Part shown: one piece after another, positions 16,297-42,085 of the stretch
Numbering within the stretch: position 1 is the stretch's first letter
Layout of the letters: each line of letters opens with the position of its first letter
Assembly (NCBI GenBank): GCA_014871385.1
Contig: CM026426.1
Location: 22,705,474 to 22,769,473, forward strand
DNA from: Ceratodon purpureus
Lineage: Eukaryota; Streptophyta; Bryopsida; Pseudoditrichales; Ditrichaceae
Length of the DNA stretch: 64,000 bases
Direction: 5' to 3'
Made by a program: the position numbers and the translations under genes
The notes under the pieces: model-generated
Told to the model about the DNA's origin: nothing
Databases searched by the model: none
The model's input: the letters and a program-made list of their open reading frames with translations, nothing else

Positions 16297-16372
16297 GTAC
16301 GTGAGCGGAGAGCGCAGAGCGGAGAGCGGTGAGCGCAGATTTGGAGAGCGGAGAGCACAGAATGGGGGACAG
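16297..16372. repeat. GAGCGGAGAGCG minisatellite, copy A
   Basis: Imperfect repeats of GAGCGGAGAGCGCA, next to AAGCTTGTACGTGAGCGG. The reverse complement of this stretch closely matches 41859-41920, including the boundary words ATTCTGTGCTCTCC and CTCCGCTCACGTAC, so the two are inverted copies of one dispersed repeat. Confidence 0.75.
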
Positions 16373-16379
16373 AACCTTA

Positions 16380-17004: not shown

Positions 17005-17042
<38 letters not shown>

Positions 17043-17270
17043 CATTCTTTAATTTTAAAAGAAAAATTTAAATGCTAAATGACCTCTGCTAAACCTTCAT
17101 CTTTTTCCATTCGGTTTAGGAGGATGACAACTTTTAAATGAATGAATAGCCGATTTTCAAGGGCGCCAAACATCTTCTTCAGGGATATTTAAGATAAGAG
17201 TAGGGAATGTCTCTGCCTCTTTTGTGTTGGTGTTATGTGAAGCTCTTTTCCGTAGTGCGGGACAGCAGCT
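16380..17270. other. AT-rich spacer with a 37-base T run
   Basis: No gene is visible. An uninterrupted T run covers 17006-17042. The AT-rich DNA before it has several T-rich stretches. The last 200 bp before the ORF at 17271 become more balanced and may contain its leader. Confidence 0.6.
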
Positions 17271-17723: not shown

Positions 17724-17974
17724 GACATCTAATAACAAGTATATGTTTGCTGTAAGAAAGGGTACATGTCAGGGGATACGAGGTACATAGTGCACTTGTT
17801 CAAGATAGAATGTATTGAAATAGAATGCAATCAATGAGAACGACAAAGCCTTTATAATGAAAAAGTCAATATAGCTTTCGTGTTGCGGACTTAGTACATG
17901 GGATATTACTAAAATCATTCACTCCTTGACAAATGGCCATTGTGGAAATGGCAGTTCTAAAGTAGGAGGGCTAC

Positions 17975-20900: not shown

Positions 20901-21101
20901 GATGGTATTGGTCCACAAGTGTCCGTCGTATCGTTTGTCCATTCCCTGCATTGACTTGGCGGCGAGCTTAGAGGATCCTGTAGCAGCTGGTGGCAACTCA
21001 AAAAGAACCGGACCATCAAACTTCGCAGGCAAGTACTCTACTCTCTCGTGTCTAATAGTGGAATAGTCTATCTTTTTCAAAATGTTTTTTGACCCACGCA
21101 T
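17975..21101 (-). CDS. MULE transposase with GCM/WRKY-like zinc finger and SWIM finger
   Basis: Two exons, 21101-19575 and 19468-17975, with a GT-AG intron and a phase-0 join, encode about 1006 residues without any stop. Near the N-terminus is a Cys/His cluster (Cys90, Cys95 in WLRCTNEEC and His170, His172 in YHIGTHDHP), matching the WRKY/GCM1-type DNA-binding fingers known in plant MULEs. The catalytic core shows the first Asp in VYDATYC (about 346), the second in FMADNAQ (about 395) and the MULE-typical CxxHW as CLFHW (424-428). A long, disordered, charged insert follows. The protein ends with a SWIM finger: CTC at about 938-940 and CKH at about 959-961. These elements move by cut-and-paste in the nucleus. 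The third catalytic acidic residue could not be assigned. An intact frame this long suggests a young or active copy, unlike the decayed MULE at 56-59 kb. Confidence 0.85.
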
Positions 21102-21143
21102 CTTTGCAAGCTGTTGAAGGAGGGGGACAATGCTAATTGTGAC

Positions 21144-21734
21144 CTAGGACAATGGAGGAGACACATTGGAAGGAGGAGCATCTGCGTGGACCTTGGGCAC
21201 CAACTTGACGGGACTGACTTTGTCATCAGAGGAGAGAGTAATGACTGTCGGAGGCGGAGGTTTCTCTACGTCTGAAGTTTCAGTACCAGGCTCGGCCTTG
21301 ACCTTGACATCACGAGGTAAGGAAGTCTGAATTGTGCAAGTAGAAGAGCGACGGGGGGTGAAGATCTCAGTGGATGCAGCCATCAGAGAATCAGTAAGAC
21401 CATAGACTCTATAGGATCCAGGGAAGAGTCTCCACTGCAACATATTATTCTCATCTCTCATTGAAGGTTGCCCGAGGGTGTGGGTAACCTCCGCAGTAAC
21501 GTCATCGAAGATCTCCTCCTCTATACTGATGGAATCCTCACAAAAATGAAATCTGAGACTTAGGCGAAGAGAGGAAACTGTAGCTAGACCATCGTTATCT
21601 ACGCGAAACCTAAGGGGGATACCCATGCCTTGGGCGTACAGACAGACCATCCCCATATTCGCAGGCAATTCAGAGATATTACAGGAAGAAAGGAGAAGAG
21701 GGAGTGTACTAGCGAAGCAGTATCGCGAGAGCAA
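21144..21734 (-). CDS. Hypothetical 196-residue protein upstream of the MULE transposase
   Basis: Same strand as the transposase, ending 42 bp before its ATG. It could be an independent second ORF of the element or an upstream exon region. The N-terminal 110 residues look globular (CNISELPANMGMVCLYAQG, LRLSLRFHFCED). The C-terminal part is Pro/Ser-rich and holds VKVKAEPGTE and VITLSSDDK. The first resembles a sumoylation consensus (psi-K-x-E) and the second a SUMO-interacting motif (hydrophobic core plus acidic tail). No known fold is recognised. Confidence 0.45.
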   Translation of the reverse strand: MLSRYCFASTLPLLLSSCNISELPANMGMVCLYAQGMGIPLRFRVDNDGLATVSSLRLSLRFHFCEDSISIEEEIFDDVTAEVTHTLGQPSMRDENNMLQWRLFPGSYRVYGLTDSLMAASTEIFTPRRSSTCTIQTSLPRDVKVKAEPGTETSDVEKPPPPTVITLSSDDKVSPVKLVPKVHADAPPSNVSPPLS

Positions 21735-22240
21735 AGTGAGAGGAATGATGCATCGCTGTTGATCATTTTATTCTAGTTGGAATGTCCATGTGGACGACTA
21801 GGTAATGATTCATTCTGTTACGAAACGAATGTATGATTAAAGAGAGACGGCGCTAACTAATTAGAATGTTGCTTTCTGTAGGCATGAGGGTAGGGATTTT
21901 TAGAAGTACGCATTGAATATATGAATCGTGGAACCGATTCTATTTGATGTGGAGGATGGTTAGATTAGACTGAGCCGTCAGTTGTGTCCATATTTAATAC
22001 AAGTTTTCCAGTGCTTAATTTAAAACTTTTATTATTTTGTGGGCTTCGTTTATTCTCTTCCAATATAGATTGATCTCATCAGCTTTAATTCAAAATGCAA
22101 TTATTTATAGTTTTCACTAATTTAAGTAGGTTAAATATTAAGGGCTGAATCAGAGGACTTGAAGGTTTGGAATATATAAGAGGAAGGGAAGTTAGAAGGA
22201 GAGCTATATTGTGAGGAGAGTTCTCTCGTTAGTTAGACAC
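21735..22240. other. Intergenic DNA between divergent genes
   Basis: About 500 bp of AT-rich DNA between the minus-strand MULE unit and the plus-strand gene at 22241. It would hold the promoters of both. AATATATAAGAGG at about 22170 is a good TATA candidate for the plus-strand gene. I looked for a MULE terminal inverted repeat here and saw none that I could support. Confidence 0.45.
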
Positions 22241-22874
22241 ATGAAGGAGAGTGGAGGGTCAGCTCCCTCCACTTATGTCACTTCTAAACCTAGAAGAAAA
22301 CCAGGTGGTACAGATTTTACGAATAGGAGAGCGAGGAGAAGGAGAGAATCACGTAGAAAAGAGAAGTCGAAAGGCAACCTCTTGAGTGCACCTTTGAAGG
22401 TTAGAGGAGTAGGGCTGCCTCTGGCAATTAATTTTTGTAGCATTCGGAAACTCATTCTCGAGTCTATAGTGGAAATAAAAGATGAGGTTTTAGATGTTCC
22501 AGTTGGGGACCATGGTGTAGTAAACATGGACGATAAAAGCAATGAGATGACGGAACATTTAGGATTTAGTGGTTTAGAAACACCACAGTCTCCGCAGCCT
22601 TCGTTTGGCTTAAACGAGTCACTTCTAGAAGAGATAGCTTTAGGATCCACAGAGGATCTACTTTCTACAGAAGTAAGTTACTGACCTTCCATTTAAATCT
22701 TGAATGTGTATTGTTCAATTCGGAATCAGACTGCTTCGTTTCTGATGTTATTGTCTTGACTAGCATAATTCTAGTTGTAACCGACGTACTTTACTGTGCT
22801 TTATGTTTTGCGAAATCTTAGACTTATTTTAAATGCAGATTTCAGAAAGTAAAATTCTGAGTTCTCCTTTGTAG
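22241..22874 (+). CDS. Hypothetical basic/acidic protein, two exons
   Basis: Exon 1 runs from ATG 22241 to 22672 and ends at a textbook donor, GTAAGT. The acceptor AAATGCAG at 22838 opens exon 2, 22839-22874, in phase 0, with a TAG stop, giving 155 residues. Without splicing the frame ends only three codons later. The protein has a strongly basic patch (RRARRRRESRRKEKSKG, likely nuclear localisation), a middle with VEIKDEVLDVPVGD, and an acidic Ser/Leu-rich tail. No domain is recognised. A TATA-like ATATATAAGAGG lies about 65 bp upstream. It is separated from the next ORF by only about 150 bp. Confidence 0.45.
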
Positions 22875-23025
22875 TTAAGCTGACTTTGTTCTTTTGAGGA
22901 AGTGGATCGAGGGTGGAGGTTCTAGATTTGCTAAACAGAGTCGAGGAGTGAGGGGGGGCAATTCAGAAGCTCCAGAAGGAACTGGTGAGTGGGTGGGAGG
23001 TGCTGCGAGAGCAAGGAGAGCAATA

Positions 23026-23568
23026 ATGGAGGAAGGAGAGGCAGTGGATCGTCAGCACGCGGCCCGTGGAGGTCTTAAAAAAGGTGGGCGAAAAGGGGCG
23101 CTGCGGGGAGGGCGAGCAGGTGGGAGTGGGGGAGGCCGTGGTAGAGGTGCAGAGGGGAAGGGTTCGAAGATGCAGGTCGGGAGGGGGCGTCGCGGAGGTG
23201 AGAGGCGGGGAGAGCAGCGCGGAGGGCGAGGAGCAGGGCGTGGTCGCATCAACGTAGAGGAGGGCTCCGAAATGGCTGCCCAGGCTGGGGGAGACGAAGA
23301 TATCCGGAATGAGGATCAAGGACCGGAAGAGCACATAGAGGATCAGGAGGTTGAACAACAGGGCGAGGACCAAGAGAAAAACGACGACGACGAGGATGGT
23401 GAGGAAGACGACCACGACCGAGATGGAGAAGAGGAAGAGGAGAACGAGCAGGATGGAGAAGAGGACGAGGAGGACGAGCAAGAAGAGGTTGGAGTAGAGG
23501 AGCAGGGACAGCAGCAGCGCCGCCGTTACACCGACGTCGATGTATTGAATTACCGAGGGATTGAGTGA
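23026..23568 (+). CDS. RGG-box protein with a very acidic tail
   Basis: The frame is open from 22894. The first good ATG is 23026, giving 180 residues. Residues about 15-75 are a Gly/Arg-rich region (RGGRAGGSGGGRGRG and RRGGERRGEQRGGRG), the type that binds RNA or is arginine-methylated. The next 80 residues are almost only Glu/Asp/Gln (for example DDDEDGEEDDHDRDGEEEEE), ending RRRYTDVDVLNYRGIE. It stops about 100 bp before the satellite array. A donor-like GTATTG at 23542 is in the right phase to splice to the acceptor at 35570 beyond the array, which would make this the 5' exon of the ParB/methyltransferase gene. That is speculative. Low complexity lowers confidence, but the clean switch from RGG to acidic is typical of real nuclear proteins. 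Confidence 0.45.
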   Translation: MEEGEAVDRQHAARGGLKKGGRKGALRGGRAGGSGGGRGRGAEGKGSKMQVGRGRRGGERRGEQRGGRGAGRGRINVEEGSEMAAQAGGDEDIRNEDQGPEEHIEDQEVEQQGEDQEKNDDDEDGEEDDHDRDGEEEEENEQDGEEDEEDEQEEVGVEEQGQQQRRRYTDVDVLNYRGIE

Positions 23569-23672
23569 GGATGGTGGGTTCAAGTGTATGCTTGAGGTTT
23601 GTGGGGATTTGTCAAAATTTGGTTTTGGGGTTTTCGGGTTTAAGGTTTGGTTATATTTGTTGGGGTTTGTCG

Positions 23673-26600
23673 GAATGGCTTTGGTGCTTGAAGCTTTCGG
23701 CCCCGAATGTATGTGGGGGGCCTTGAGTACTGAGCTGCTTGCGGAGGCTCGGCCCCTCTGGCTGGGCCGATGATGCAGCCATGGCTCTCTTTTTTTTTCT
23801 CAATGCCATTGGTGCTTGAAGCTTTCGGCCCCGAATGTATGTGGGGGGCCTTGAGCACTGAGCTGCTTGCGGAGGCTCGGCCCTTGTGGCAGGGCCGATG
23901 ATGCAGCCACGGCTCTTTTTATTTTCTCAATGCCATTGGTGCTTGAAGCTTTCGGCCCCAAATGTATGTGGGGGGCCTTGAGCAGTGAGCTGCTTGCGGA
24001 GGCTCGGCCCGTGTGGCTGGGCCGATGATGCAGCCATGGCTCTCTTTTTTTTTCTCAATGCCATTGGTGCTTGAAGCTTTTGGCCCCGAATGTATGTGGG
24101 GGGCCTTGAGCACTGAGCTGCTTGGGGAGGCTCAGCCCCTATGGCTCGGCCGATGATGCAGCCACGGCTCTTTTTTTTTTTCTCAATGCCATTGGTGCTT
24201 GAAGCTTTCGGCCCCAAATGTATGTGGGGGGCCTTGAGCAGTGAGCTGCTTGCGAAGGCTCGGCCCGTGTGGCTGGGCTGATGATGCAGCCATGGCTCTC
24301 TTTTTTCTTCTCAATGGCTTTGGTGCTTGAAGCTTTCGGCCCCAAATGTATGTGGGGGGCCTAGAGCAGTGAGCTGCTTGCGGAGGCTCCGCCCTTGTGG
24401 CTGGGCCGATGATGCAGCCATGGCTCTCTTTTTGTTTCTCAATGCCATTGGTGCTTGAAGCTTTCGGGCCCGAATGTATGTGGGGGGCCTTCAGTAGTGA
24501 GCTGCTTGCGGAGGCTCGGCCCGTGTGGCTGGGCCGATGATGCAGCCATGGCTCTTTTTTTTTTTCTCAATGCCATTGGTGCTTGAAGCTTTCGGCCCCG
24601 AATGTATGTGGGGGGCCTTGAGCACTGAGCTGCTTGCGGAGGCTCGGCCCTTGTGGCTGGGCCGATGATGCAGCCATGGCTCTTTTTTTTTTTTCTCAAT
24701 GCTATGGGTGCTTGAAGCTTTCGGCCCCAAATGTATGTGGGGGGCCTTGAGCACTGAGCTGCTTGCGGAGACTCGGCCCCTCTGGCTGGGCCGATGATGC
24801 AGCCACGGCTTTTTTTTTTTTTCTCAATGCCATTGGTGCTTGAAGCTTTCGGCCCCGAATGTATGTGGGGGGCCTTGAGCAGTGAGCTGCTTGCGGAGGC
24901 TCGGCCCGTGTGGCAGGGCCGATGATGCAGCCATGGCTCTCTTTTTTTTTCTCAATGCCATTGGTGCTTGAAGCTTTTGGCCCCGAATGTATGTGGGGGG
25001 CCTTGATCACTGAGCTGCTTGCGGAGACACGGCCCTTGTGGCTGGGCCGATGATGCAGCCATGGCTCTTTTTTTTTTTTCTCAATGCTATGGGTGCTTGA
25101 AGCTTTCGGCCCCAAATGTATGTGGGGGGCCATCAGCACTGAGCTGCTTGCGGAGGCTCGGCCCTTGTGGCTGGGCCGATGATGCAGCCATGGCTCTTTT
25201 TTTTTTTCTCAATGGCTTTGGTGCTTGAAGCTTTCGGCCCCGAATGTATGTGGGGGGCCTTGAGCACTGAGCTGCGTGCAAAGGCTTGGCCCCTGTGGCT
25301 GGGCCAATGATGCAGCCACGGCTTTTTTTTTTTTCTCAATGCCATTGGTGCTTGAAGCTTTCGGCCCCGAATGTATGTGGGGGGCCTTGAGCAGTGAGCT
25401 GCTTGCGGAGGCTCGGCCCGTGTGGCTGGGCCGATGATGCAGCCATGGCTCTCTTTTTTTTTCTCAATGCCATTGGTGCTTGAAGCTTTTGGCCCCGAAT
25501 GTATGTGGGGGGCCTTGAGCACTGAGCTGCTTGGGGAGGCTCAGCCCCTGTGGCTCGGCCGATGATGCTGCCACGGCTCTTTTTTTTTTTCTCAATGCCA
25601 TTGGTGCTTGAAGCTTTTGGCCCCGAATGTATGTGGGGGGCCTTCAGCACAGAGCTGCTTGCGGAGGCTCGGCCCGTGTGGCTGGGCCGATGATGCAGCC
25701 ATGGCTCTCTTTTTTCTTCTCAATGGCTTTGGTGCTTGAAGCTTTCGGCCCCAAATGTATGTGGGGGGCCTTGAGCAGTGAGCTGCTTGCGGAGACTCGG
25801 CCCGTGTAGCTGGGCTGATGATGCAGCCATGGCTCTCTTTTTTCTTCTCAATGGCTTTGGTGCTTGAAGCTTTCGGCCCCAAATGTATGTGGGGGGCCTA
25901 GAGTAGTGAGCTGCTTGCGGAGGCTCCGCCCTTGTGGCTGGGCCGATGATGCAGCCATGGCTCTCTTTTTTTTTCTCAATGACATTGGTGCTTGAAGCTT
26001 TCGGGCCCGAATGTATGTGGGGGGCCTTCAGTAGTGAGCTGCTTGCGGAGGCTCGGCCCGTGTGGCTGGGCCGATGATGCAGCCATGGCTCTCTTTTTTT
26101 TTCTCAATGCCATTGGTGCTTGAAGCTTTCGGCCCCGAATGTATGTGGGGGGCCTTGAGCAGTGAGCTGCTTGCGGAGGCTCGGCCCTTGTGGCTGGGCC
26201 GATGATGCAGCCATGGCTCTTTTTTTTTTTTCTCAATGCTATGAGTGCTTGAAGCTTTCGGCCCCAAATGTATGTGGGGGGCCTTGAGCACTGAGCTGCT
26301 TGCGGAGACTCGGCCCCTGTGGCTGGGCCGATGATGCAGCCACGGCTTTTTTTTTTTTTCTCAATGCCATTGGTGCTTGAAGCTTTCGGCCCCGAATGTA
26401 TGTGGGGGGCCTTGAGCAGTGAGCTGCTTGCGGAGGCTCGGCCCGTGTGGCTGGGCCGATGATGCAGCCATGGCTCTCTTTTTTTTTCTCAATGCCATTG
26501 GTGCTTGAAGCTTTCGGCCCCGAATGTATGTGGGGGGCCTTGATCACTGAGCTGCTTGCGGAGACACGGCCCTTGTGGCTGGGCCGATGATGCAGCCATG

Positions 26601-29600
26601 GCTCTTTTTTTTTTTTCTCAATGCTATGGATGCTTGAAGCTTTCGGCCCCAAATGTATGTGGGGGGCCTTGAGCACTGAGCTGCTTGCGCAGACTCGGCC
26701 CCTGTGGCTGGGCCGATGATGTTGCCACGGCTCTTTTTTTTTTTCTCAATGCCATTGGTGCTTGAAGCTTTCGGCCCCGAATGTATGTGGGGGGCCATCA
26801 GCACTGAGCTGCTTGCGGAGGCTCGGCCCTTGCGGCTGGGCCGATGATGCAGCCATGGCTCTTTTTTTTTTTCTCAATGGCTTTGGTGCTTGAAGCTTTC
26901 GGCCCCGAATGTATGTGGGGGGCCTTGAGCACTGAGCTGCTTGCAGAGGCTTGGCCCCTGTGGCTGGGCCAATGATGCAGCCACGGCTTTTTTTTTTTTC
27001 TCAATGCCATTGGTGCTTGAAGCTTTCGGCCCCGAATGTATGTGGGGGGCCTTGAGCAGTGAGCTGCTTGCGGAGGCTCGGCCCGTGTGGCTGGGCCGAT
27101 GATGCAGCCATGGCTCTCTTTTTTTTTCTCAATGCCATTGGTGCTTGAAGCTTTTGGCCCCGAATGTATGTGGGGGGCCTTGAGCACTGAGCTGCTTGGG
27201 GAGGCTCAGCCCCTGTGGCTCGGCCGATGATGCAGCCACGGCTCTTTTTTTTTTTCTCAATGCCATTGGTGCTTGAAGCTTTCGGCCCCGAATGTATGTG
27301 GGGGGCCTTCAGCACAGAGCTGCTTGCGGAGGCTCGGCCCGTGTGGCTGGGCCGATGATGCAGCCATGGCTCTCTTTTTTTTTCTCAATGCCATTGGTGC
27401 TTGAAGCTTTTGGCCCCGAATGTATGTGGGGGGCCTTGAGCACTGAGCTGCTTGGGGAGGCTCAGCCCCTGTGGCTCGGCCGATGATGCTGCCACGGCTC
27501 TTTTTTTTTTTCTCAATGCCATTGGTGCTTGAAGCTTTTGGCCCCGAATGTATGTGGGGGGCCTTCAGCACAGAGCTGCTTGCGGAGGCTCGGCCCGTGT
27601 GGCTGGGCCGATGATGCAGCCATGGCTCTCTTTTTTCTTCTCAATGGCTTTGGTGCTTGAAGCTTTCGGCCCCAAATGTATGTGGGGGGCCTTGAGCAGT
27701 GAGCTGCTTGCGGAGACTCGGCCCGTGTAGCTGGGCTGATGATGCAGCCATGGCTCTCTTTTTTCTTCTCAATGGCTTTGGTGCTTGAAGCTTTCGGCCC
27801 CAAATGTATGTGGGGGGCCTAGAGTAGTGAGCTGCTTGCGGAGGCTCCGCCCTTGTGGCTGGGCCGATGATGCAGCCATGGCTCTCTTTTTTTTTCTCAA
27901 TGACATTGGTGCTTGAAGCTTTCGGGCCCGAATGTATGTGGGGGGCCTTCAGTAGTGAGCTGCTTGCGGAGGCTCGGCCCGTGTGGCTGGGCCGATGATG
28001 CAGCCATGGCTCTCTTTTTTTTTCTCAATGCCATTGGTGCTTGAAGCTTTCGGCCCCGAATGTATGTGGGGGGCCTTGAGCAGTGAGCTGCTTGCGGAGG
28101 CTCGGCCCTTGTGGCTGGGCCGATGATGCAGCCATGGCTCTTTTTTTTTTTTTCTCAATGCTATGAGTGCTTGAAGCTTTCGGCCCCAAATGTATGTGGG
28201 GGGCCTTGAGCACTGAGCTGCTTGCGGAGACTCGGCCCCTGTGGCTGGGCCGATGATGCAGCCACGGCTTTTTTTTTTTTTCTCAATGCCATTGGTGCTT
28301 GAAGCTTTCGGCCCCGAATGTATGTGGGGGGCCTTGAGCAGTGAGCTGCTTGCGGAGGCTCGGCCCGTGTGGCTGGGCCGATGATGCAGCCATGGCTCTC
28401 TTTTTTTTTCTCAATGCCATTGGTGCTTGAAGCTTTCGGCCCCGAATGTATGTGGGGGGCCTTGATCACTGAGCTGCTTGCGGAGACACGGCCCTTGTGG
28501 CTGGGCCGATGATGCAGCCATGGCTCTTTTTTTTTTTTCTCAATGCTATGGGTGCTTGAAGCTTTCGGCCCCAAATGTATGTGGGGGGCCTTGAGCACTG
28601 AGCTGCTTGCGCAGACTCGGCCCCTGTGGCTGGGCCGATGATGTTGCCACGGCTCTTTTTTTTTTTCTCAATGCCATTGGTGCTTGAAGCTTTCGGCCCC
28701 GAATGTATGTGGGGGGCCATCAGCACTGAGCTGCTTGCGGAGGCTCGGCCCTTGCGGCTGGGCCGATGATGCAGCCATGGCTCTTTTTTTTTTTCTCAAT
28801 GGCTTTGGTGCTTGAAGCTTTCGGCCCCGAATGTATGTGGGGGGCCTTCAGCACAGAGCTGCTTGCGGAGGCTCGGCCCGTGTGGCTGGGCCGATGATGC
28901 AGCCATGGCTCTCTTTTTTCTTCTCAATGGCTTTGGTGCTTGAAGCTTTCGGCCCCAAATGTATGTGGGGGGCCTTGAGCAGTGAGCTGCTTGCGGAGAC
29001 TCGGCCCGTGTAGCTGGGCTGATGATGCAGCCATGGCTCTCTTTTTTCTTCTCAATGGCTTTGGTGCTTAAAGCTTTCGGCCCCAAATGTATGTGGGGGG
29101 CCTAGAGCAGTGAGCTGCTTGCGGAGGCTCCGCCCTTGTGGCTGGGCCGATGATGCAGCCATGGCTCTTTTTTTTTTTCTCAATGCCATTGGTGCTTGAA
29201 GCTTTCGGGCCCGAATGTATGTGGGGGGCCTTCAGTAGTGAGCTGCTTGCGGAGGCTCGGCCCGTGTGGCTGGGCCGATGATGCAGCCATGGCTCTCTTT
29301 TTTTTTCTCAATGCCATTGGTGCTTGAAGCTTTCGGCCCCGAATGTATGTGGGGGGCCTTGAGCACTGAGCTGCTTGCGGAGGCTCGGCCCTTGTGGCTG
29401 GGCCGATGATGCAGCCATGGCTCTTTTTTTTTTTTCTCAATGCTATGGGTGCTTGAAGCTTTCGGCCCCAAATGTATGTGGGGGGCCTTGAGCACTGAGC
29501 TGCTTGCGGAGACTCGGCCCCTCTGGCTGGGCCGATGATGCAGCCACGGCTTTTTTTTTTTTTCTCAATGCCATTGGTGCTTGAAGCTTTCGGCCCCGAA

Positions 29601-32600
29601 TGTATGTGGGGGGCCTTGAGCAGTGAGCTGCTTGCGGAGGCTCGGCCCGTGTGGCTGGGCCGATGATGCAGCCATGGCTCTCTTTTTTTTTCTCAATGCC
29701 ATTGGTGCTTGAAGCTTTCGGCCCCGAATGTATGTGGGGGGCCTTGATCACTGAGCTGCTTGCGGAGACACGGCCCTTGTGGCTGGGCCGATGATGCAGC
29801 CATGGCTCTTTTTTTTTTTTCTCAATGCTATGGGTGCTTGAAGCTTTCGGCCCCAAATGTATGTGGGGGGCCATCAGCACTGAGCTGCTTGCGGAGGCTC
29901 GGCCCTTGTGGCTGTGCCGATGATGCAGCCATGGCTCTTTTTTTTTTTCTCAATGGCTTTGGTGCTTGAAGCTTTCGGCCCCGAATGTATGTGGGGGGCC
30001 TTGAGCACTGAGCTGCGTGCAAAGGCTTGGCCCCTGTGGCTGGGCCAATGATGCAGCCACGGCTTTTTTTTTTTTCTCAATGCCATTGGTGCTTGAAGCT
30101 TTCGGCCCCGAATGTATGTGGGGGGCCTTGAGCAGTGAGCTGCTTGCGGAGGCTCGGCCCGTGTGGCTGGGCCGATGATGCAGCCATGGCTCTTTTTTTT
30201 TTTCTCAATGCCATTGGTGCTTGAAGCTTTTGGCCCCGAATGTATGTGGGGGGCCTTGAGCACTGAGCTGCTTGGGGAGGCTCAGCCCCTGTGGCTCGGC
30301 CGATGATGCTGCCACGGCTCTTTTTTTTTTTCTCAATGCCATTGGTGCTTGAAGCTTTTGGCCCCGAATGTATGTGGGGGGCCTTCAGCACAGAGCTGCT
30401 TGCGGAGGCTCGGCCCGTGTGGCTGGGCCGATGATGCAGCCATGGCTCTCTTTTTTCTTCTCAATGGCTTTGGTGCTTGAAGCTTTCGGCCCCAAATGTA
30501 TGTGGGGGGCCTTGAGCAGTGAGCTGCTTGCGGAGACTCGGCCCGTGTAGCTGGGCTGATGATGCAGCCATGGCTCTCTTTTTTCTTCTCAATGGCTTTG
30601 GTGCTTGAAGCTTTCGGCCCCAAATGTATGTGGGGGGCCTAGAGTAGTGAGCTGCTTGCGGAGGCTCCGCCCTTGTGGCTGGGCCGATGATGCAGCCATG
30701 GCTCTCTTTTTTTTTCTCAATGACATTGGTGCTTGAAGCTTTCGGGCCCGAATGTATGTGGGGGGCCTTCAGTAGTGAGCTGCTTGCGGAGGCTCGGCCC
30801 GTGTGGCTGGGCCGATGATGCAGCCATGGCTCTCTTTTTTTTTCTCAATGCCATTGGTGCTTGAAGCTTTCGGCCCCGAATGTATGTGGGGGGCCTTGAG
30901 CAGTGAGCTGCTTGCGGAGGCTCGGCCCTTGTGGCTGGGCCGATGATGCAGCCATGGCTCTTTTTTTTTTTTCTCAATGCTATGAGTGCTTGAAGCTTTC
31001 GGCCCCAAATGTATGTGGGGGGCCTTGAGCACTGAGCTGCTTGCGGAGACTCGGCCCCTGTGGCTGGGCCGATGATGCAGCCACGGCTTTTTTTTTTTTT
31101 CTCAATGCCATTGGTGCTTGAAGCTTTCGGCCCCGAATGTATGTGGGGGGCCTTGAGCAGTGAGCTGCTTGCGGAGGCTCGGCCCGTGTGGCTGGGCCGA
31201 TGATGCAGCCATGGCTCTCTTTTTTTTTCTCAATGCCATTGGTGCTTGAAGCTTTCGGCCCCGAATGTATGTGGGGGGCCTTGATCACTGAGCTGCTTGC
31301 GGAGACACGGCCCTTGTGGCTGGGCCGATGATGCAGCCATGGCTCTTTTTTTTTTTTCTCAATGCTATGGGTGCTTGAAGCTTTCGGCCCCAAATGTATG
31401 TGGGGGGCCTTGAGCACTGAGCTGCTTGCGCAGACTCGGCCCCTGTGGCTGGGCCGATGATGTTGCCACGGCTCTTTTTTTTTTTCTCAATGCCATTGGT
31501 GCTTGAAGCTTTCGGCCCCGAATGTATGTGGGGGGCCATCAGCACTGAGCTGCTTGCGGAGGCTCGGCCCTTGCGGCTGGGCCGATGATGCAGCCATGGC
31601 TCTTTTTTTTTTTCTCAATGGCTTTGGTGCTTGAAGCTTTCGGCCCCGAATGTATGTGGGGGGCCTTGAGCACTGAGCTGCTTGCAGAGGCTTGGCCCCT
31701 GTGGCTGGGCCAATGATGCAGCCACGGCTTTTTTTTTTTTTCTCAATGCCATTGGTGCTTGAAGCTTTCGGCCCCGAATGTATGTGGGGGGCCTTGAGCA
31801 GTGAGCTGCTTGCGGAGGCTCGGCCCGTGTGGCTGGGCCGATGATGCAGCCATGGCTCTCTTTTTTTTTCTCAATGCCATTGGTGCTTGAAGCTTTTGGC
31901 CCCGAATGTATGTGGGGGGCCTTGAGCACTGAGCTGCTTGGGGAGGCTCAGCCCCTGTGGCTCGGCCGATGATGCAGCCACGGCTCTTTTTTTTTTTCTC
32001 AATGCCATTGGTGCTTGAAGCTTTCGGCCCCGAATGTATGTGGGGGGCCTTCAGCACAGAGCTGCTTGCGGAGGCTCGGCCCGTGTAGCTGGGCTGATGA
32101 TGCAGCCATGGCTCTCTTTTTTCTTCTCAATGGCTTTGGTGCTTGAAGCTTTCGGCCCCAAATGTATGTGGGGGGCCTAGAGCAGTGAGCTGCTTGCGGA
32201 GGCTCCGCCCTTGTGGCTGGGCCGATGATGCAGCCATGGCTCTTTTTTTTTTTCTCAATGCCATTGGTGCTTGAAGCTTTCGGGCCCGAATGTATGTGGG
32301 GGGCCTTCAGTAGTGAGCTGCTTGCGGAGGCTCGGCCCGTGTGGCTGGGCCGATGATGCAGCCATGGCTCTCTTTTTTTTTCTCAATGCCATTGGTGCTT
32401 GAAGCTTTCGGCCCCGAATGTATGTGGGGGGCCTTGAGCACTGAGCTGCTTGCGGAGGCTCGGCCCTTGAAGCTCGGCCGATGATGCAGCTATGGCTCTT
32501 TTTTTTTTTTCTCAATGCTATGAGTGCTTGAAGCTTTCGGCCCCAAATGTATGTGGGGGGCCTTGAGCACTGAGCTGCTTGCGGAGACTCGGCCCCTGTG

Positions 32601-35418
32601 GCTGGGCCGATGATGCAGCCACGGCTTTTTTTTTTTTTCTCAATGCCATTGGTGCTTGAAGCTTTCGGCCCCGAATGTATGTGGGGGGCCTTGAGCAGTG
32701 AGCTGCTTGCGGAGGCTCGGCCCGTGTGGCTGGGCCGATGATGCAGCCATGGCTCTCTTTTTTTTTCTCAATGCCATTGGTGCTTGAAGCTTTCGGCCCC
32801 GAATGTATGTGGGGGGCCTTGATCACTGAGCTGCTTGCGGAGACACGGCCCTTGTGGCTGGGCCGATGATGCAGCCATGGCTCTTTTTTTTTTTTCTCAA
32901 TGCTATGGGTGCTTGAAGCTTTCGGCCCCAAATGTATGTGGGGGGCCTTGAGCACTGAGCTGCTTGCGCAGACTCGGCCCCTGTGGCTGGGCCGATGATG
33001 TTGCCACGGCTCTTTTTTTTTTTCTCAATGCCATTGGTGCTTGAAGCTTTCGGCCCCGAATGTATGTGGGGGGCCATCAGCACTGAGCTGCTTGCGGAGG
33101 CTCGGCCCTTGTGGCTGGACCGATGATGCAGCCATGGCTCTTTTTTTTTTTCTCAATGGCTTTGGTGCTTGAAGCTTTCGGCCCCGAATGTATGTGGGGG
33201 GCCTTGAGCACTGAGCTGCTTGCAGAGGCTTGGCCCCTGTGGCTGGGCCAATGATGCAGCCACGGCTTTTTTTTTTTTTCTCAATGCCATTGGTGCTTGA
33301 AGCTTTCGGCCCCGAATGTATGTGGGGGGCCTTGAGTAGTGAGCTGCTTGCGGAGGCTCGGCCCTTGTGGCTGGGCCGATGATGCAGCCATGGCTCTCTT
33401 TTTTTTTCTCAATGCCATTGGTGCTTGAAGCTTTCGGCCCCGAATGTATGTGGGGGGCCTTGAGCACTGAGCTGCTTGCGGAGGCTCGGCCCTTGTGGCT
33501 CGGCCGATGATGCAGCTATGGCTCTTTTTTTTTTTTCTCAATGCTATGAGTGCTTGAAGCTTTCGGCCCCAAATGTATGTGGGGGGCCTTGAGCACTGAG
33601 CTGCTTGCGGAGACTCGGCCCCTGTGGCTGGGCCGATGATGCAGCCACGGCTTTTTTTTTTTTTCTCAATGCCATTGGTGCTTGAAGCTTTCGGCCCCGA
33701 ATGTATGTGGGGGGCCTTGATCACTGAGTTGCTTGCGGAGGCTCGGCCCTTGTGGCTGGGCCGATGATGCAGCCATGGCTCTCTTTTTTTTTCTCAATGC
33801 CATTGGTGCTTGAAGCTTTGGGCCCCGAATGTATGTGGGGGGCCTTGAGCAGTGAGCTGCTTGCGGAGGCTCCGCCCTTGTGGCTGGGCCGATGATGCAG
33901 CCATGGCTCTTTTTTTTCTTCTTAATGGCTTTGGTGCTTGAAGCTTTCGGCCCCGAATGTATGTGGAGGGCCTTGAGTAGTGAGGTGCTTGCGGAGGCTC
34001 GGCCCTTGTGGCTGGGCCGATGATGCAGCCATGGCTCTCTTTTTTCTTGTCAATGGCTTTGGTGCTTGAAGCTTTCGGCCCCAAATGTATGTGGGGGGCC
34101 TTGAGCACTGAGCTGCTTGCGGAGGCTCGGCCCGTGTGGCTGGGCCGATGATGCAGCCATGGTTTATTTTTTTTTTCTCAATGGCTTTGGTGCTTGAAGC
34201 TTTCGGCCCCGAATGTATGTGGGGGGCCTTGAGCAGTGAGCTGCTTGCGGAGGCTCGGCCCTTGTGGCTGGGCCGATGATGCAGCCATGGCTCTTTTTTT
34301 TTTTTTCTCAATGCTATTGGTGCTTGAAGCTTTCGGCCCCAAATGTATGTGGGGGGCTTTGAGCACTGAGCTGCTTGCGGAGACTCGGCCCTTGTGGCTG
34401 GGCCGATGATGCAGCCACGGCTCTTTTTTTTTTTCTCAATGCCATTGGTGCTTGAAGCTTTCGGCCCCGAATGTATGTGGGGGGCCTTCAGCACTGAGCT
34501 GCTTGCGGAGGCTCGGCCCTTGTGGCTGGGCCGATGATGCAGCCATGGCTCTTTTTTTTTTTCTCAATGGCTTTGGTGCTTGAAGCTTTCGGCCCCGAAT
34601 GTATGTGGGGGGCCTTGAGCACTGAGCTGCTTGCAGAGGCTTGGCCCCTGTGGCTGGGCCGATGATGCAGCCACGGCTTTTTTTTTTTTTCTCAATGCCA
34701 TTGGTGCTTGAAGCTTTCGGCCCCGAATGTATGTGGGGGGCCTTGAGCAGTGAGCTGCTTGCGGAGGCTCCGCCCTTGTGGCTGGGCCGATGATGCAGCC
34801 ATGGCTCTCTTTTTTTTTCTCAATGCCATTGGTGCTTGAAGCTTTCGGCCCCGAATGTATGTGGGGGGCCTTGAGTAGTGAGCTGCTTGCGGAGGCTCGG
34901 CCCTTGTGGCTGGGCCGATGATGCAGCCATGGCTCTCTTTTTTTTTCTCAATGCCATTGGTGCTTGAAGCTTTGGGCCCCGAATGTATGTGGAGGGCCTT
35001 GAGCACTGAGCTGCTTGCGGAGGCTCGGCCCTTGTGGCTGGGCCGATGATGCAGCCACGGCTGTCTTTTTTCTTCTCAATGGCTTTGGTGCTTGAAGCTT
35101 TCGGCCCCGAATGTATGTGGGGGGCCTTGAGCACTGGGCTGCTTGCGGAGGCTCGGCCCTTGTGGCTGGGCCGATGATGCAGCCATGGTTTTTTTTTTTT
35201 TTCTCAATGGCTTTGGTGCTTGAAGCTTTCGGCCCCGAATGTATGTGGGGGGCCTTGAGCAGTGAGCTGCGTGCGGAGGCTTGGCCCTTGTGGCTGGGCC
35301 GTTGATGCAGCCATGGTTCTCTTTTTTTTTCTCAATGCCATTGGTGCTTGAAGCTTTCGGCCCCGAATGTATGTGGGGGGCCTTGACACTGAGCTGCTTG
35401 TGGCTGGGCTGATGAGGC
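23673..35418. repeat. Satellite array, about 92 copies of a 128-bp unit
   Basis: Head-to-tail copies of a 128-bp unit that starts around CTCAATGCCATTGGTGCTTG, runs through AAGCTTTCGGCCCCGAATG, TATGTGGGGGGCC, TGAGCTGCTTGCGGAGGCTC and GATGATGCAGCCATGGCTC, and ends in a T run of 8-14. Almost every unit has a HindIII site and most an NcoI site. Units differ by 5-10 marker positions (CCATTGG/CTTTGG/CTATGG, CCATGG/CCACGG, CTCGGCCC/CTCCGCCC, T-run length). The markers recur with a higher-order period: near-identical four-unit minus-strand frames start at 25139, 26676, 28598, 29880, 31417 and 32955, spaced 1537, 1922, 1282, 1537 and 1538 bp, that is 12, 15, 10, 12 and 12 units. Because 128 is not a multiple of 3, reading frames rotate. 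The many short ORFs in it are artefacts. Confidence 0.97.
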
Positions 35419-35588
35419 ATTTGCTTGCACTTATTTCCTTACATTGCTGCGCCGGTCATGGTTTTTGGTTGTTGCTTGGGATGGGCGGGGGCCTTATTTG
35501 GCTCTCTTGGTCGGGGCACTTACATTGCAGGCTGATGATCCTAATGCTCATTTTATGGTCTGTAATTTAGGAGTCATCTGAGGATAAC

Positions 35589-38500
35589 ATGGGGAGCCAA
35601 GTACAAGTAGTGACTCCAGCGGAGACTGAGGTACTTTAATTTGTACCCTATTCCTTAGATGATTTAGCATTTCCGAAATTATTTATGTTTTTTATTGTTT
35701 AACTCTTTTTGACATTGGAATTTAATCTTTTTTTTTTCATAATCTAGGTATATTCCGATGCTCCAGAGCTTTCTGCCAATTCCCCCATATCAGTAATAAA
35801 TGTTTCCGACCTTTCGGATTCATTTGATCAGCATAACTGTACTTGTGATGTAGCAAACCCTGTAGGTTTTGGTAGTGTACCTTTAGCGGTCCATTCTCCA
35901 CAGTACATGCCTACATCTCCAGTGTACTTGCCTACGTCCCCTGTCTATGAGCCTACTTCCCCTCGCTACATGCCCACCTCTCCTACACAGGATTCACCAT
36001 CGATGTCTCCACCCTCTCCATCATCGCCTATCAGACTTAGGCGGCCAGCTCATGTTGTGTTTGCCCTTCCGGCAATTCTGCCATGCCCTGTCCAACAAAC
36101 GAGGCGTTTCTGGAGGAGGCGCCGTCATTGGAACTGTAGACAGTCTAAGGAGTATTATAGGCGATCATCACGTCGATAGAGTCTTCAGGCTTAACTGATA
36201 TTGTACTTGTTGTATTCGAATTATCATTATGAAGTGATTTCATATTTCTCTATTTTGCAAGACTTTCTAAGTTTTGATTCCAACATTAATCTGCACATCG
36301 TTTTGCAGGTTACTCAAACACAAGAAGTGTTGGTAAAACAATCTTGTCCTGAAGACTTGAAGACTGCTTTTGAGGGCGAATTGGAGCACCGTAAACAATA
36401 CAAGCTGGACTCCATTGGCGTCATCAACAAACTCAGGATTCAACCTGAAAGGAAGTCCCGCTTGATGGTGCCCCTGTGCAGGATGATATCAATGGCCAAG
36501 GTTAGACCAGTGGGCGAAATGGGGGTACAGCACTTGGAGCGGGAGTTTGTTAAGGGGTATAGAGATGGGGACCGCGTCATGTACATCTCCATATACAACA
36601 GTGAAGAGCAGACGAAGGATGTTATGGCGGAGACCATAGGTGGTTGGAGCCCTTTATGGAGGGCCGCGAATGATCGTTTTGATGATGACATCCGTGGAGA
36701 CGAGGAGTGGATGCAATTCACCAACAAGATGTTCTTTGTCTGGGAAGGTAACCACCGCCTCGCTGCCTGGCTCCGACATATAAACAAGCACCATGCGGAC
36801 GACCCAGCATGGCACATCTCAGTACATTGCATTATACTAGACCCCCGCGGCCATGTGGGCAAGTTGCTTCACGCCATGCACGACATTAACTGGTAAGTAT
36901 CTCCGTTGTTATCCTTCTTTGTGTACACTCAAACCTTTGAGCTACTGCATTTTATTCCTCTAATATTCAACTTTGTTTTTCAGGTCAACTGAGAATGACC
37001 ACGTCAAGAGTAATCTTCCAGCAAAGTTGTTTCGAATCCGCTCATTCGGGATGATGAAACTGGAGGATTTTAAAGACCTCCTCAGCCCTCAAGAATATGA
37101 TGCATGTCTGAAACACAAGCCACCTAATCCGTCGTGGTTTCCCTTGACAACCAAGATTTTTATAGCATTTCTATACCGTGTAAGTTTTGCCGCCATCCAT
37201 TCTTCGCTTCTGCAACTTGGATAAATTTCAATATCCTGATAAATACTTTTGTTTCAACAGCGGGAAATCGCACAAGCCTCCGACGACGCAGCGAGGGCCT
37301 ACTATGAGAAGACACCAGAGGAGGATCAAACAGCAAATGGAGTTTGGGAAGTCATGAATGAGGCATCTGAGAAAATGGTCGAATCCATCAAGAAGAAGGA
37401 CTTTACCAAGTACTTGGCCATTGCGAATCCCAAGAACGGTGACGACTTCCTTAATGAGGTGACACACTCACTAATGCCATTTACAATACTTCGTATGTCA
37501 ACGTGATTTTCTTAATTCGTAGCGTCTAAAACAATCACTCTTCATGCAGATCAATCGACATTACAGTGACTTCTCGAAACCGGAGATGACCCTTGAGAAG
37601 CTACAGAAAATTGTCCCAGCAGCAGTTGAGCCCAAATACAAGGCTCGCTGGTTGAGGTGGTGGAACTCATCCCCAAATTCCAGACTATCTTACAGATTCC
37701 TTCCGCTCGAATTCAAGGAAACCGACCTCGACCCTTGGTTGAACAAGGCTTCATTTTGGGCTGGGATATATTCTCTACATTTAGTATTCAAACTACATTA
37801 TAGTTTTAATTTTTCTTAACTTCTACCTCGTCGCTAATATATTTTCGTCTATATTATAGTTGGAGGAAGCTGTCATCAATGAAGTCGAGGACATATGCAA
37901 AGCGGAGAACCTCATCATCAATTGGAAGGATTTTCCTGATGTCCAAGAACCGGGGGCTTATGTAGAGAGTTCACGTATTCTTTTATGGGACAAGGCCTTC
38001 CCGACGTTCCTTGGAAAGCAGGCTAAGAAGGTTTATGACAAGAAGTCTAACTTCGCTAAATTCCCTGGAACCGCTGAGGTTGTCAAGCGGGTTACTTATC
38101 GGTACGTATGTTATCTTCATGTCATTCGTTTTCCGCAATAATGGGCTGTTTTTATTTTAGTGATGCTAACCTTCTTTAAAATTGTTTGTTTAGGTACTTT
38201 AAGAGAGAGCTTGTTCCAAAAGGCGTCCTCACCGTCCAGCAGCTCCCCAGCTACTTCCTTGCTTGGACGTCGAGAACCTCGGACCAGTGTATCTATTCTC
38301 CACAACAGTTGAAAAGGTACAAAGCTCCCCACTTGCTTGAGGGATGCTGGTACCTTGATTGTTTTCGCGGTTTCACTATTGACTCTGAGGTGGACATCAA
38401 GACTTTACATGATGCCGGTGAGGTAGTGGCCGAAGAAGCGGTGGAAGCTACTGAAGATGGCGGAGGCCCTGAAGACCAATCATCGGCTCCTCCACCGAAG

Positions 38501-40269
38501 AAAGGGAGAGTTTGGCGACTGAAATCTTTGCGATCACATTCACAAGCTTCACAGCAAACTGGTGCGGCGTCTTCTGCTCCAGAGCAAACGGCACCAGAGC
38601 CCTCTCCAGGTAATGTGGTTACGAAGCCCTCTTCAACCTCTTCACCGGGTCCTTCCTCGATCAGTGCTTCGGAGATCACCAGAGGTCTCCTTCAGCAGAG
38701 GAAGGCCAAACTATATCCTCAAACAACTTCTTCCGCTGGAGCTTCATGCTCAACACAAGTTTCCGTCTTCAACTCATCTGTGGAAACCTTGTTACGGCGA
38801 AATAAGAGACAGGAGAGAAAAGATGGCGACCCGGATTGGATCAAGACTCAAGACTTCATTCGCAAGGTATGTTCCAATATTTTGACATTTAATGGATTCT
38901 GCCACCTCTACTCGCTATGTAGTTACTAACTCTCGTTTCTTGTTTCCTCAAGTTTGGAGCAGGCCGCAAAAACGAAGTTCCGGACCAGTGCAAACAAGAG
39001 GACCATCTAGGAGTCGACTTGATCATTGCCGACATCCCTGAGAATCTTCCCGTCCCTTCCGTTTCCGTTCCCCCCACGAGTATTCCGCCTTGGAACTCTC
39101 GCGGGAAGGAATATTTGTACGACATCTTCCATTTTGCAGATAAATACCTGCAGAAAAATGGTGCCATCTGCCTCATCTACAACACTGATCAGAAGCTGGC
39201 TAAGGATATCGAGGAAGAAGCTGCTGGTGGTCACTACGTGCTTTTCAAGGACTGGTGGGGTGTCAATGTACTCGGCCTGACTTCTCCAACGAACCCCGAG
39301 AATTTGGTAATTTCCCTAAACATACCCTTATCTTTACTTATTGATAACCCTTCCGCTTAATTTTACTCACTAGTTTTCCTTGACTGCAGACTATGCGGTT
39401 CTGGATTCGCGTCTACGTTCGTAGTGGCAGTACTTTCTCCTTCCAGACGAAGAAGGAAGATCTGATACATGGGCTCCTCAACATTACCGAGAGTGATGCC
39501 ATTTTCAACTTCACCGATGTGGATTCGCAGCTCATGAATGGGGAGGTGCCGTGGAGAGGCGCAAGGGAGAAATCCATTGACATGATGCAGGGCATACTTG
39601 AGGAGCTGTCAAAGCCCGGCGACATAGTTGTTGATTGGAATGCTGGGACAGGTAACTATTCATGCATATCTTTGGTGAATTATTCCTCTCGTTTTTACCA
39701 CAGTTTCTCATTTGTTTGTATCTCTCCGAGTTTCAGGAGCCTCCATCAAGGCTGCCCAGGCTACTGGTCGCCACATTCTCGCTTTTTAGGAGGACAAAGC
39801 CATATTCAACGCCCTTCTCAAAACATCCGCCATGGGCCCTCCTAAACATCCTAGGCCGGCAGTAGCAGACGAAGCCCCTCCAAAGAGACCGAGACCTGAT
39901 AAGTGGTGTAAGCCTTCTATTCTTTGTTCAAATTCTCCAAGCATTACTTCTCTTTGCAGCTCTACGTACTCGATCTAACCACAATCGGTTCTCTATTGCA
40001 GAGTAATTTCAGCAACACCGCCACGTGGGCCAACATCAGTGTCCACTCCATCGTGGCGTCTTCATTCCAGCCCGATTCAGCCTTTCATCCTTCCGGACTA
40101 CGCAGAGGACTTAGCACAGGCGTTTCAATCTGGAGCCCTTACATATGTTCCTAGTCGGCCAACTACTTTTGATCCCAGGGCCCTTCTAATCGTCGATGAC
40201 GAGGCGGTAGAAGGAGATTCGGAGTCATCTAGTTCTGAGAGTGAAAGTAGCGACTGTAGCATGTTGTGA
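35589..40269 (+). CDS. ParB-like domain plus beta-class DNA methyltransferase-like protein, one in-frame TAG
   Basis: Ten exons join in consistent phase: 36309-36892, 36984-37179, 37261-37458, 37550-37783, 37860-38101, 38194-38866, 38953-39306, 39390-39651, 39737-39907 and 40013-40269 (1057 codons with the stop). Upstream exons 35589-35630 and 35748 onward probably supply the N-terminus with CTD-like heptads, but their link to exon 36309 needs a weak donor (about 36054-36057) or a frameshift. The ParB-like part has [16 protein letters not shown] and the signature EGNHRLAAW (near 36745). After a Pro/Ser/Glu linker comes a methyltransferase-like domain in beta-class order: DLIIADIPE where DPPY is expected (39013-39039), then [14 protein letters not shown] with [12 protein letters not shown] as the SAM-binding motif I (39616-39786). 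TAG at 39787-39789 cuts the frame; coding continues in frame to a Ser/Glu-rich end. It could be a host gene, a domesticated gene or an element cargo gene. The altered catalytic motif questions activity. Confidence 0.7.
35904..35987 (+). repeat. Four RNA polymerase II CTD-like heptads
   Basis: Within the upstream exon that begins at 35748, four consecutive 21-bp units encode [21 protein letters not shown] and YMPTSPT. The pattern Y-x-P-T-S-P-x equals the RNA polymerase II largest-subunit tail consensus (YSPTSPS) at five of seven positions in each repeat. A Ser/Pro-rich stretch follows. The nucleotide copies differ at third positions, so this is not a recent slippage product only. Confidence 0.8.
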
Positions 40270-40783
40270 GTTTGAAGTAGGCTTCGGTCTATTGTTCATT
40301 TCATTTGATTTGATTTGATTTAATTGGAGTTCATTGGGTAATCCTTCGTCTACTCTACTATCCTAAACCTAAACTTGTTATGAATCTCATTTCCAATTTG
40401 TCTCCGTGATTGTAAAGGATGAAATGTCACAACTGTAATGCTCAAAATATAATATGAAGAATGAAATGTTACAAAAGAAATGCTCAAAAATAATATTGTG
40501 CTGTTATTTATATTTTACTCATTCAAAATCCCACATTTGCATAGCCATGTTACCTATTCTTGACTTGGTGTACATCTTGGTTTCTGCTACTCCATTATTG
40601 TACACGAACTCTGAAATATTCCACGAACTTTTAAGACCATTTGTTTTAGTTGGTTTCGAGTTCTCTTATTTCTAGAATCATCTATATTATCTAAAACCAT
40701 CATGCTAGAATACTCGTATCTAGATCCAATAAAAGACCAAATCTTAAGGATTGTATTCGAACACCCCGCTAGACTTCACAGTA
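40270..40783. other. 3' flank, AT-rich
   Basis: Downstream of the ParB/methyltransferase gene. It contains a short run of TTGATTTGATTTGATT (about 40300) and AT-rich sequence, probably a 3' untranslated region and spacer. No gene is seen. Confidence 0.4.
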
Positions 40784-41155
40784 CTAATCCTTTGGAGGAT
40801 ATACAGTCCAACTCTTGTCCATATCAAACCAGCAAGTTTCGCCATCCGATATGATCACTTCGGGCAGCTGAACAACTGGATTCTCATCGACGTTCGAAAG
40901 CAAGGGATACGAGATTAGGAACAACTCCATAATACGGAGAAGCTCATTGGTACAAAGCACTGTCCAACGCCATTCACCTTCACCAACATGGAGGCTTCCG
41001 ATGTGCCTAAACGGTGGCAGGTCCATGCCTCGTTCCCTAGCGCGCTCCACCTCCAGCAGCCACGGCCGCAGCTCCTCATAACTCGCCGGTGCCTTTGGGG
41101 GCAAACCTACAGCCGCTCTCGTCCTCCTGGATCTCGCATTACACACCTTCGGCAT
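40784..41155 (-). CDS. Hypothetical 123-residue protein
   Basis: The minus-strand frame is open from 41383, but the most natural start is the ATG at 41155, giving MPKVCNARSRRTRAAVGLPP at the N-terminus. It continues with a helical PASYEELRPWLLEVERARER and a hydrophobic helix, NELLRIMELFLISYPLLS, and ends in KSWTVYPPKD. The composition is protein-like with no repeats. It is convergent with the ParB/methyltransferase gene (stop codons about 510 bp apart). I do not recognise the family. It could be a small element gene or a fragment. Confidence 0.35.
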   Translation of the reverse strand: MPKVCNARSRRTRAAVGLPPKAPASYEELRPWLLEVERARERGMDLPPFRHIGSLHVGEGEWRWTVLCTNELLRIMELFLISYPLLSNVDENPVVQLPEVIISDGETCWFDMDKSWTVYPPKD

Positions 41156-41858
41156 CGCGCAACACACTAAATTGTTGTAGTCTTCAAACGTTACACTCAA
41201 GCTTGCAGATTGACATCCCCGAACTCCTACGCTACCTTCGCATACAGCACAGCATGCCAAGGACTGTGTCACTATCCAAATACGCCACCTAGAGACAAGC
41301 TCAAGAAACCAAGAGTGACCTCCTTCTCTGGAACCCAGCTTACCAAGTGTTGTTTCATGATGAAAATCTCCTACTTCTATCACTCAAATGAAGATGCTTT
41401 GCTGCCTAGGAAGAGAGAGTAATCTTCGATGAAGACAAGGACTCTATCAAGGTATATCTTGGTTTCAGCAGTTAAGATATTATACACGGATTTTGAAATA
41501 TTCCAGGAAGTTTTCAAACCTTGCCTCCTTTACGTTCTTTCAAATTTGTTTTTTCCCTTGTGCATTTACATAATCCTATGAAAGAATTATTTGTTTGATC
41601 TAAAACTCAACTCCTGATCATTGTATCTTGCCTAAACCCATGCAAATCTAAAGGAATGTATGCATGACGTCATCATGACATCAGCCCTAATTTGTATCTT
41701 TGAGAACAAACGTAATAAATTCTTACCAGAGATAATCCTAAATTCCACGGTAATATACTCTTTTTCTAAAAAAAGTGTCATAATTAAGCCTTAATTTAGT
41801 AATTTTCCACGGTTATAGGGTCTACTTTGCTTTTGAAAATTTTCCTAATTGTCAATTC
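41156..41858. other. Spacer
   Basis: AT-rich sequence without a supportable gene. The possible upstream extension of the minus-strand frame (to 41383) looks less protein-like than the part after the ATG at 41155. Confidence 0.4.
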
Positions 41859-41920
41859 TGTGCTCTCCATTCTGCGCTCACCGCTCTCCGCTCTACGCTC
41901 TCCGCTCACGTACGAACTTT
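41859..41920. repeat. GAGCGGAGAGCG minisatellite, copy B (inverted to copy A)
   Basis: CTGTGCTCTCC, then TGCGCTCACCGCTCTCCGCTC and CTCTCCGCTCACGTACGAAC. It is the reverse complement of the array at 16297-16372 with a few changes. The RING gene starts about 170 bp downstream, so this repeat may be the promoter-proximal end of that element. Confidence 0.75.
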
Positions 41921-42085
41921 CCCCGAGATGGGGGTCCATTTTTATTGTGGAGGGGGCGAGTTTTTGAATTTTCTGTATTCGTTATTTTGTAAACCGCCAT
42001 TTATCAACTCCTTGTTTTCTTTAAAACAAAACCATAACGTTTTTGTTTAAAACAAGGTTACTTTGGTGGATCCGCAAATTGATGA

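Follow-up and report, generated by a model that had tools for sequence, protein, structure and literature searches.

Accessory open reading frames are common in Mutator elements, VANC included (PMC6446971, PMC5735166), and methyltransferases encoded by transposons are already known from DIRS retrotransposons and viral Mariner elements. The Mutator accessory proteins described so far are few and poorly understood. The main text of a Mutator review contains none of the words methyltransferase, methylase, moss or ParB (PMC6446971), and in the openly available literature we found no account of a Mutator element with a ParB-like methyltransferase gene. Here we analyse a spliced gene of the moss Ceratodon purpureus, located in a 64,000-nucleotide stretch of contig CM026426.1 (the window), in which a methyltransferase-related protein is encoded within a high-copy transposon.

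The gene lies within a high-copy transposon

An earlier note on this DNA had suggested that the gene, lying next to a large satellite and transposons, could be the cargo of an unknown element, and had proposed that related genomes be searched for copies and terminal repeats. The gene does lie between terminal inverted repeats bordered by 9-bp target duplications, in an element with many copies (Table 1). The ends of the element, at 16285 and 41924, were set by comparing the window with its ten best other copies, and the terminal inverted repeats are around 62 bp long. The gene, a divergent transposase-like gene and a 128-bp satellite are parts of one transposon, which the note had not recognised.

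An exact 9-bp target duplication was present in 14 of the 16 copies checked at both ends, and the remaining two had 2 and 6 mismatches. By group, the duplication was exact in 7/9 near copies and in 7/7 copies that carry an approximately 80% identical version of the gene; since these seven were chosen for having transposase and gene matches close together, they represent intact elements in a biased way. Copies C3_18, c12_1 and c4_17, the left ends of which fall outside the sequence examined, were left out of this count. A search of the moss's own 362-Mb genome with exon 2 yielded at least 150 scored copies (1,899 first-look candidates); among the matches listed, 63 are on the window's own contig and 124, counted by hand, have no internal stop. 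The search with exon 8 likewise gave at least 150 scored matches. The 128-bp satellite is present in three other copies from the window's contig and was not found in the pieces examined of seven copies on other contigs. No RNA families or tRNAs were found within the window.

Table 1 Features of the transposon and its genes (positions within the window)
Feature	Position	Strand	Basis and remarks
Left 9-bp target-site duplication GAGATGGGG	16276..16284	.	Same letters at 41925-41933
Whole transposon, 25,640 bp	16285..41924	.	Similarity to other genomic copies ends here; inverted ends and 9-bp duplications
Left terminal inverted repeat	16285..16349	+	56/62 aligned columns same as right end
Transposase-like gene	17975..21734	-	ORFs 21144-21734, 19527-21101, 17975-19441
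128-bp satellite array, 91.5 copies	23674..35400	.	Within transposon
Exon 1, ParB-like/methyltransferase gene	35589..35630	+	Gene model
Alternative second exon	35748..36179	+	Gene model; joined to exon 1, gives 157-residue product
Exon 2, ParB-like region (VRP ... EGNHRLAAW ... VHCIIL)	36309..36892	+	Gene model
Exon 3	36984..37179	+	Gene model
Exon 4	37261..37458	+	Gene model; pN/pS 0.11
Exon 5	37550..37783	+	Gene model; 28% identity with sister family, E 4e-9
Exon 6	37860..38101	+	Gene model
Exon 7, low-complexity linker within	38194..38866	+	Gene model; frameshift gaps, 5/10 copies
Exon 8, methyltransferase motif IV (DIPE in window)	38953..39306	+	Gene model, copy and profile comparison
Exon 9, reaches start of methyltransferase motif I (DWNAGTG)	39390..39651	+	Gene model, copy comparison
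Exon 10, remainder of motif I region; TAG after HILAF in window copy	39737..39907	+	Gene model
Exon 11, acidic C-terminal tail; weak acceptor	40004..40269	+	Gene model
Right terminal inverted repeat	41862..41924	-	Pairs with left end
Right 9-bp target-site duplication GAGATGGGG	41925..41933	.	Same letters as left duplication

Structure of the gene

On the plus strand, 11 exons were modelled between 35589 and 40269, with every intron GT-AG; intron 1 spans 678 nt and introns 2-10 span 76-96 nt. The resulting reading frame comprises 1,074 codons including the final stop and holds a single internal TAG, directly after HILAF in exon 10 within the methyltransferase domain, with 945 residues preceding it. 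A ten-exon gene with an open protein of 1,056 residues had been proposed for this interval. The spliced plus-strand gene is there, with 11 exons instead of ten, and the proposed protein was nearly right but not open, because the 11-exon frame contains that TAG.

Peptide matches to exons 8, 9 and 10 were found in 30/31, 30/31 and 28/31 sequences, respectively (the window included; some of the matches partial). The TAG after HILAF occurs in the window copy only, that is, in 1 of the 28 sequences matched at that point. Readthrough and an altered genetic code were rejected as explanations of the stop because the other 27 sequences have a sense codon at its position. Exon 1 can also be joined to an alternative second exon (35748-36179), giving a product of 157 residues with four heptads of the YMPTSPV type, which we take to resemble the RNA polymerase II CTD. 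This alternative exon contains no stops or frameshifts in 10/10 other copies and has a pN/pS of 0.48.

The C-terminal part is homologous to DNA methyltransferases

The motifs DLIIADIPE and GRHILAF follow one another in the order of beta-class amino-methyltransferases (IV before I). The Pfam N6_N4_Mtase profile matched the window protein with an E value of 4.4e-4 (20.7 bits, below the curated cut-off of 26.7 bits), and the C-terminal part also matched a PHROG DNA methyltransferase family (E 9.9e-7). In hhalign, comparison with nine phage enzymes gave a probability of 94% (E 1.4e-7, 199 columns), and in the PDB a profile built from six copies matched DpnA at E 1.4e-4 and CcrM at E 0.0055. The best stretch in tblastn against phages was 38% identity over 76 residues in phage SfV (E 6e-7); Wolbachia phage WO methylases aligned full-length but weakly (E 0.08-0.9). 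Judged from these alignments, the C-terminal part is homologous to the beta-class (N6_N4_Mtase) DNA amino-methyltransferases, and the beta-class assignment made earlier was therefore right as a statement of homology.

Aligned with beta-class enzymes, the D-I-P-E of the gene falls opposite D-P-P-Y. Across the 30 sequences with exon 8, motif IV reads D[IV]PEN in 28 and EIPEN and NIPEN in one each, and in none of the 30 is the fourth place occupied by an aromatic residue. The element copies do not show the catalytic consensus (D/N/S)PP(Y/F/W), and for this reason we class the gene as a methyltransferase homologue, not as an enzyme. The AdoMet motif GTG and the AdoMet-site region are kept across copies.

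Further N6_N4_Mtase matches that pass the Pfam cut-off occur elsewhere in the genome, among them a sister family that scores 31.0 bits versus 26.7 bits. This family has about 56 matches at 57% identity or more (hand count), dispersed in the genome. One of its loci (C1:829-836 kb), followed upstream, has the same architecture as the transposon gene, with identities of 39% for the ParB-like exon (E 4e-60) and 28% for the exon-5 region. Of three matches above the cut-off that were examined in part, two, both sister-family members, showed motif IV, as DQPYN and DQPFD. Element ends were not found within 2.5 kb of the sister family, nor was there a match to the ends of the 25,640-bp transposon.

An alternative is that the protein is an active DNA amino-methyltransferase that marks its own element with 4mC or 6mA and works with D[IV]PE as an atypical motif IV. 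The retained AdoMet-site region, the acid-x-Pro-aromatic motif in two members of the sister family (DQPY, DQPF) and the occurrence of bacterial-type 4mC enzymes in rotifers, with a further report from Marchantia (PMC8885841), are consistent with such an activity, whereas the absence of an aromatic residue from the last place of motif IV in all 30 sequences argues against it. Rotifer N4CMT became inactive when the Ser and Tyr of its SPPY motif were replaced (PMC8885841). We consider an active enzyme unlikely and, because of the rotifer result, favour a non-catalytic role for the moss protein.

The N-terminal part has a single ParB-like box

The N-terminal part had been read as a ParB-like core, which the profile searches did not bear out. 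No ParB profile match was obtained for the members scanned against Pfam and NCBIfam, and a PDB sequence search likewise gave no support. Comparison of the N-terminal region with ParB by hhalign gave probabilities of 0.57% and 0.67%, with either the EGNHRLAAW box or the box and the next strand aligned; for a control, the ParB-like profile was compared with the aligned phage methyltransferases, and the probability was just as negligible (0.51%). Of the two domains for which profile searching had been proposed, N6_N4_Mtase homology was thus recovered (E 1.4e-7, 94%) and ParB was not (<1%). The structure prediction suggested alongside it was uninformative on a ParB fold, as the single-sequence AlphaFold2 model of exon 2 was of low confidence (pLDDT 43.2, pTM 0.30). 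We call this part ParB-like for no other reason than that EGNHRLAAW and the strand after it line up with the ParB box; the ParB identity of this part is unproven and turns on that one short box.

The transposase-like gene and the superfamily

The 1,190-residue joined transposase protein, scanned against Pfam up to E 10, had no match. The intron between 19527 and 19442 was placed by eye. Also by eye, the protein contains DATY ... DMQSED ... ADNA ... CLFHW, which resembles a Mutator DDE core, and CxC ... CKH, which resembles a SWIM finger. Because the transposase lacks a Pfam match, the assignment of the element to Mutator leans on the length of the target duplication, the inverted ends and these by-eye motifs. 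The 9-bp duplications lie inside the 8-11 bp range of Mutator (PMC6446971), which, together with the core-like and SWIM-like motifs recognised by eye, argues against a transposon of another or new inverted-repeat superfamily that also makes 9-bp duplications; such an origin would fit the silent Pfam scan, and we give it a small chance.

Among the matches listed, 17 of 82 transposase matches have an exon-2 match within 25 kb, and the two are divergent in 16 of these 17 pairs; random placement (200 draws) gave a mean of 1.6 pairs and a maximum of 7. The other 65 of the 82 listed transposase matches, which have no exon-2 match nearby among the matches listed, may be gene-less copies or may accompany gene versions scoring below those listed. 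In the window, an in-frame stop separates ORFs 21144-21734 and 19527-21101, and copy c1_14 is open there, with 745 codons. The window copy has decayed, whereas other members of its family are intact, since the stop after HILAF is confined to it and its transposase frame is split where that of c1_14 is open; stops are thus present in both of its genes.

Selection on the gene

Comparison of exon 2 between near copies and others gave a mean dS of 0.475 and dN of 0.088 (dN/dS 0.18), with dN equal to or above dS in 0/200 pairs, and that of exon 8 gave a dN/dS of 0.56, with dN equal to or above dS in 32/198 pairs; the pairs are not independent in either exon. Copy c6_50 is left out of the exon 2 values, and exon 3 does not enter the selection analysis. 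The ParB-like exon 2 is under purifying selection, and exon 8 is weakly constrained. For the transposase, pN/pS was 0.20-0.22 (8 and 6 copies). Purifying selection would be equally expected of an active enzyme, a counterpoint to the interpretation that we favour below.

Gene capture is frequent in Mutator elements (PMC6446971), and the gene might accordingly have been passive, Pack-MULE-like cargo of no use to the element. The low exon 2 dN/dS between gene versions, the unchanged position and orientation of the gene in near and distant copies, and a sister family that spans the whole protein make this very unlikely. A lone gene, taken up from a bacterium, a phage or a giant virus and unrelated to the adjoining repeats, would match the domain order of phage ParB_N + N6_N4_Mtase proteins. 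For the gene's present state this is ruled out by at least 150 scored copies and by its place within an element flanked by target duplications, and viral contigs searched with the N-terminal 577 residues contained no relative; we find it hardly credible as an account of the locus. The earlier idea of a captured prokaryotic module may still apply to the gene's ultimate origin: fused phage proteins have the nearest architecture found, but the gene itself is spliced, occurs in many copies and is of sufficient age for a sister family that is 39% identical over the N-terminal part.

Discussion

We lean, with moderate confidence, towards the view that this gene is the second one carried by a high-copy Mutator-like transposon and that it encodes an accessory protein, built on a methyltransferase scaffold, that aids the element. 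We infer that the protein would bind AdoMet, probably without methylating, and would also bind DNA of its own element, at the ends, the spacer or the satellite. By analogy with VANC, the anti-silencing protein of Arabidopsis VANDAL elements, it may assist transposition or keep the element active, for example by fending off host methylation or silencing.

A bolder reading, possible but doubtful, is that transposons of this genome co-opted a prokaryotic-type ParB-methyltransferase architecture as a means of self-recognition, in which the DQPY/DQPF sisters may write an amino-methyl mark and the D[IV]PE lineage would act as a methyl-donor-binding reader or shield. If true, the two lineages would form a transposon-encoded epigenetic system unlike VANC. 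Whether or not it extends that far, the accessory-protein reading places a selected, methyltransferase-derived protein in a high-copy element, so that the way in which a plant transposon deals with its own methylation could be tested directly, and the presence in one genome of both the D[IV]PE lineage and a near-canonical DQPY/DQPF sister lineage makes their comparison possible.

Several known systems share parts of this arrangement. Phage fusions of ParB_N and N6_N4_Mtase, such as those of Wolbachia phage WO, have the same domain order and a homologous methyltransferase part, but they keep DPPY (9/9 aligned), have no introns and carry a ParB domain that can be recognised, whereas the ParB part of the moss protein is unrecognisable by profile. 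Bdelloid rotifer N4CMT and the Marchantia 4mC methyltransferase are likewise eukaryotic enzymes of the N6_N4_Mtase type; unlike the moss gene, they are described as single-locus host genes, and the rotifer catalytic motif is SPPY (PMC8885841). DIRS retrotransposons and viral Mariners encode their own methyltransferase domains, the role of which is described as unknown, but belong to other transposon classes, and the Mariners also carry other methyltransferase families (PMC3266345, PMC3627910). Within Mutator, MuDR pairs a transposase (mudrA) with a second conserved protein (mudrB), although the account available, with which we compared by description only, contains nothing linking mudrB to methyltransferases (PMC6446971). 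VANDAL/Hiun, Mutator-like elements of Arabidopsis, have accessory genes beside the transposase and internal tandem repeats (PMC5735166). The description of VANC, on which our comparison is based, includes no methyltransferase domain; VANC would be the nearest working parallel to the moss protein in likeness of action, not of membership (PMC5735166).

Variation among copies of the transposon

The transposon in the window, probably Mutator-like, differs between its genomic copies in both its satellite array and a segment near its right-hand end. Among the fetched copies, the 128-bp satellite was present in four, all from the same 110-Mb contig, C6 (the window and the copies at 20.6, 50.6 and 97.3 Mb), with an array length that varied from copy to copy, and none was found in the fetched pieces of seven copies from other contigs. 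Near the right end, a 1.2-kb segment was absent from six of the ten near copies and retained in those at C6:20.6, C6:50.6 and C2:9.57 Mb; the C6:97.3 Mb copy carried additional sequence at this position. The alternative exon of the ParB-like/methyltransferase gene was intact in all ten other copies compared.

Features of the window and related loci
Feature	Position	Pfam E-value	Remark
Acyltransferase-domain gene	6839-8426	5.4e-11	
128-bp satellite array	23674-35400		within transposon
Alternative exon	35748-36179		four heptads
1.2-kb element segment	40321-41514		variable between copies (comparison with ten near copies)
Overlapping ORF pair	42686-45183	3.4e-7	coiled-coil and RING finger (E-value of the latter)
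hAT transposase C-terminal dimerisation domain	45740-47158	2.7e-9	part of longer ORF
Second transposon-like gene	56790-59194	2.8e-4	SWIM finger
ORF	61521-62849	4.6e-6	weak protein-kinase match, under cut-off
Sister family loci L109-L116	C1:829-838 kb, C3:19.99 Mb, C8:9.59 Mb, C12:14.53 Mb		

Related and neighbouring genes

The sister family, one member of which shares the architecture of the ParB-like/methyltransferase gene, comprises about 56 copies and has a near-canonical motif IV (DQPY and DQPF in two members). Within the coiled-coil/RING-finger region lies a perfect 53-bp tandem duplication (43573-43680). At the acyltransferase-domain gene, the upstream ORF resembles the phosphatase portion of glycerol-3-phosphate acyltransferases from plants, and we take the heptads of the alternative exon to resemble the C-terminal domain of RNA polymerase II.
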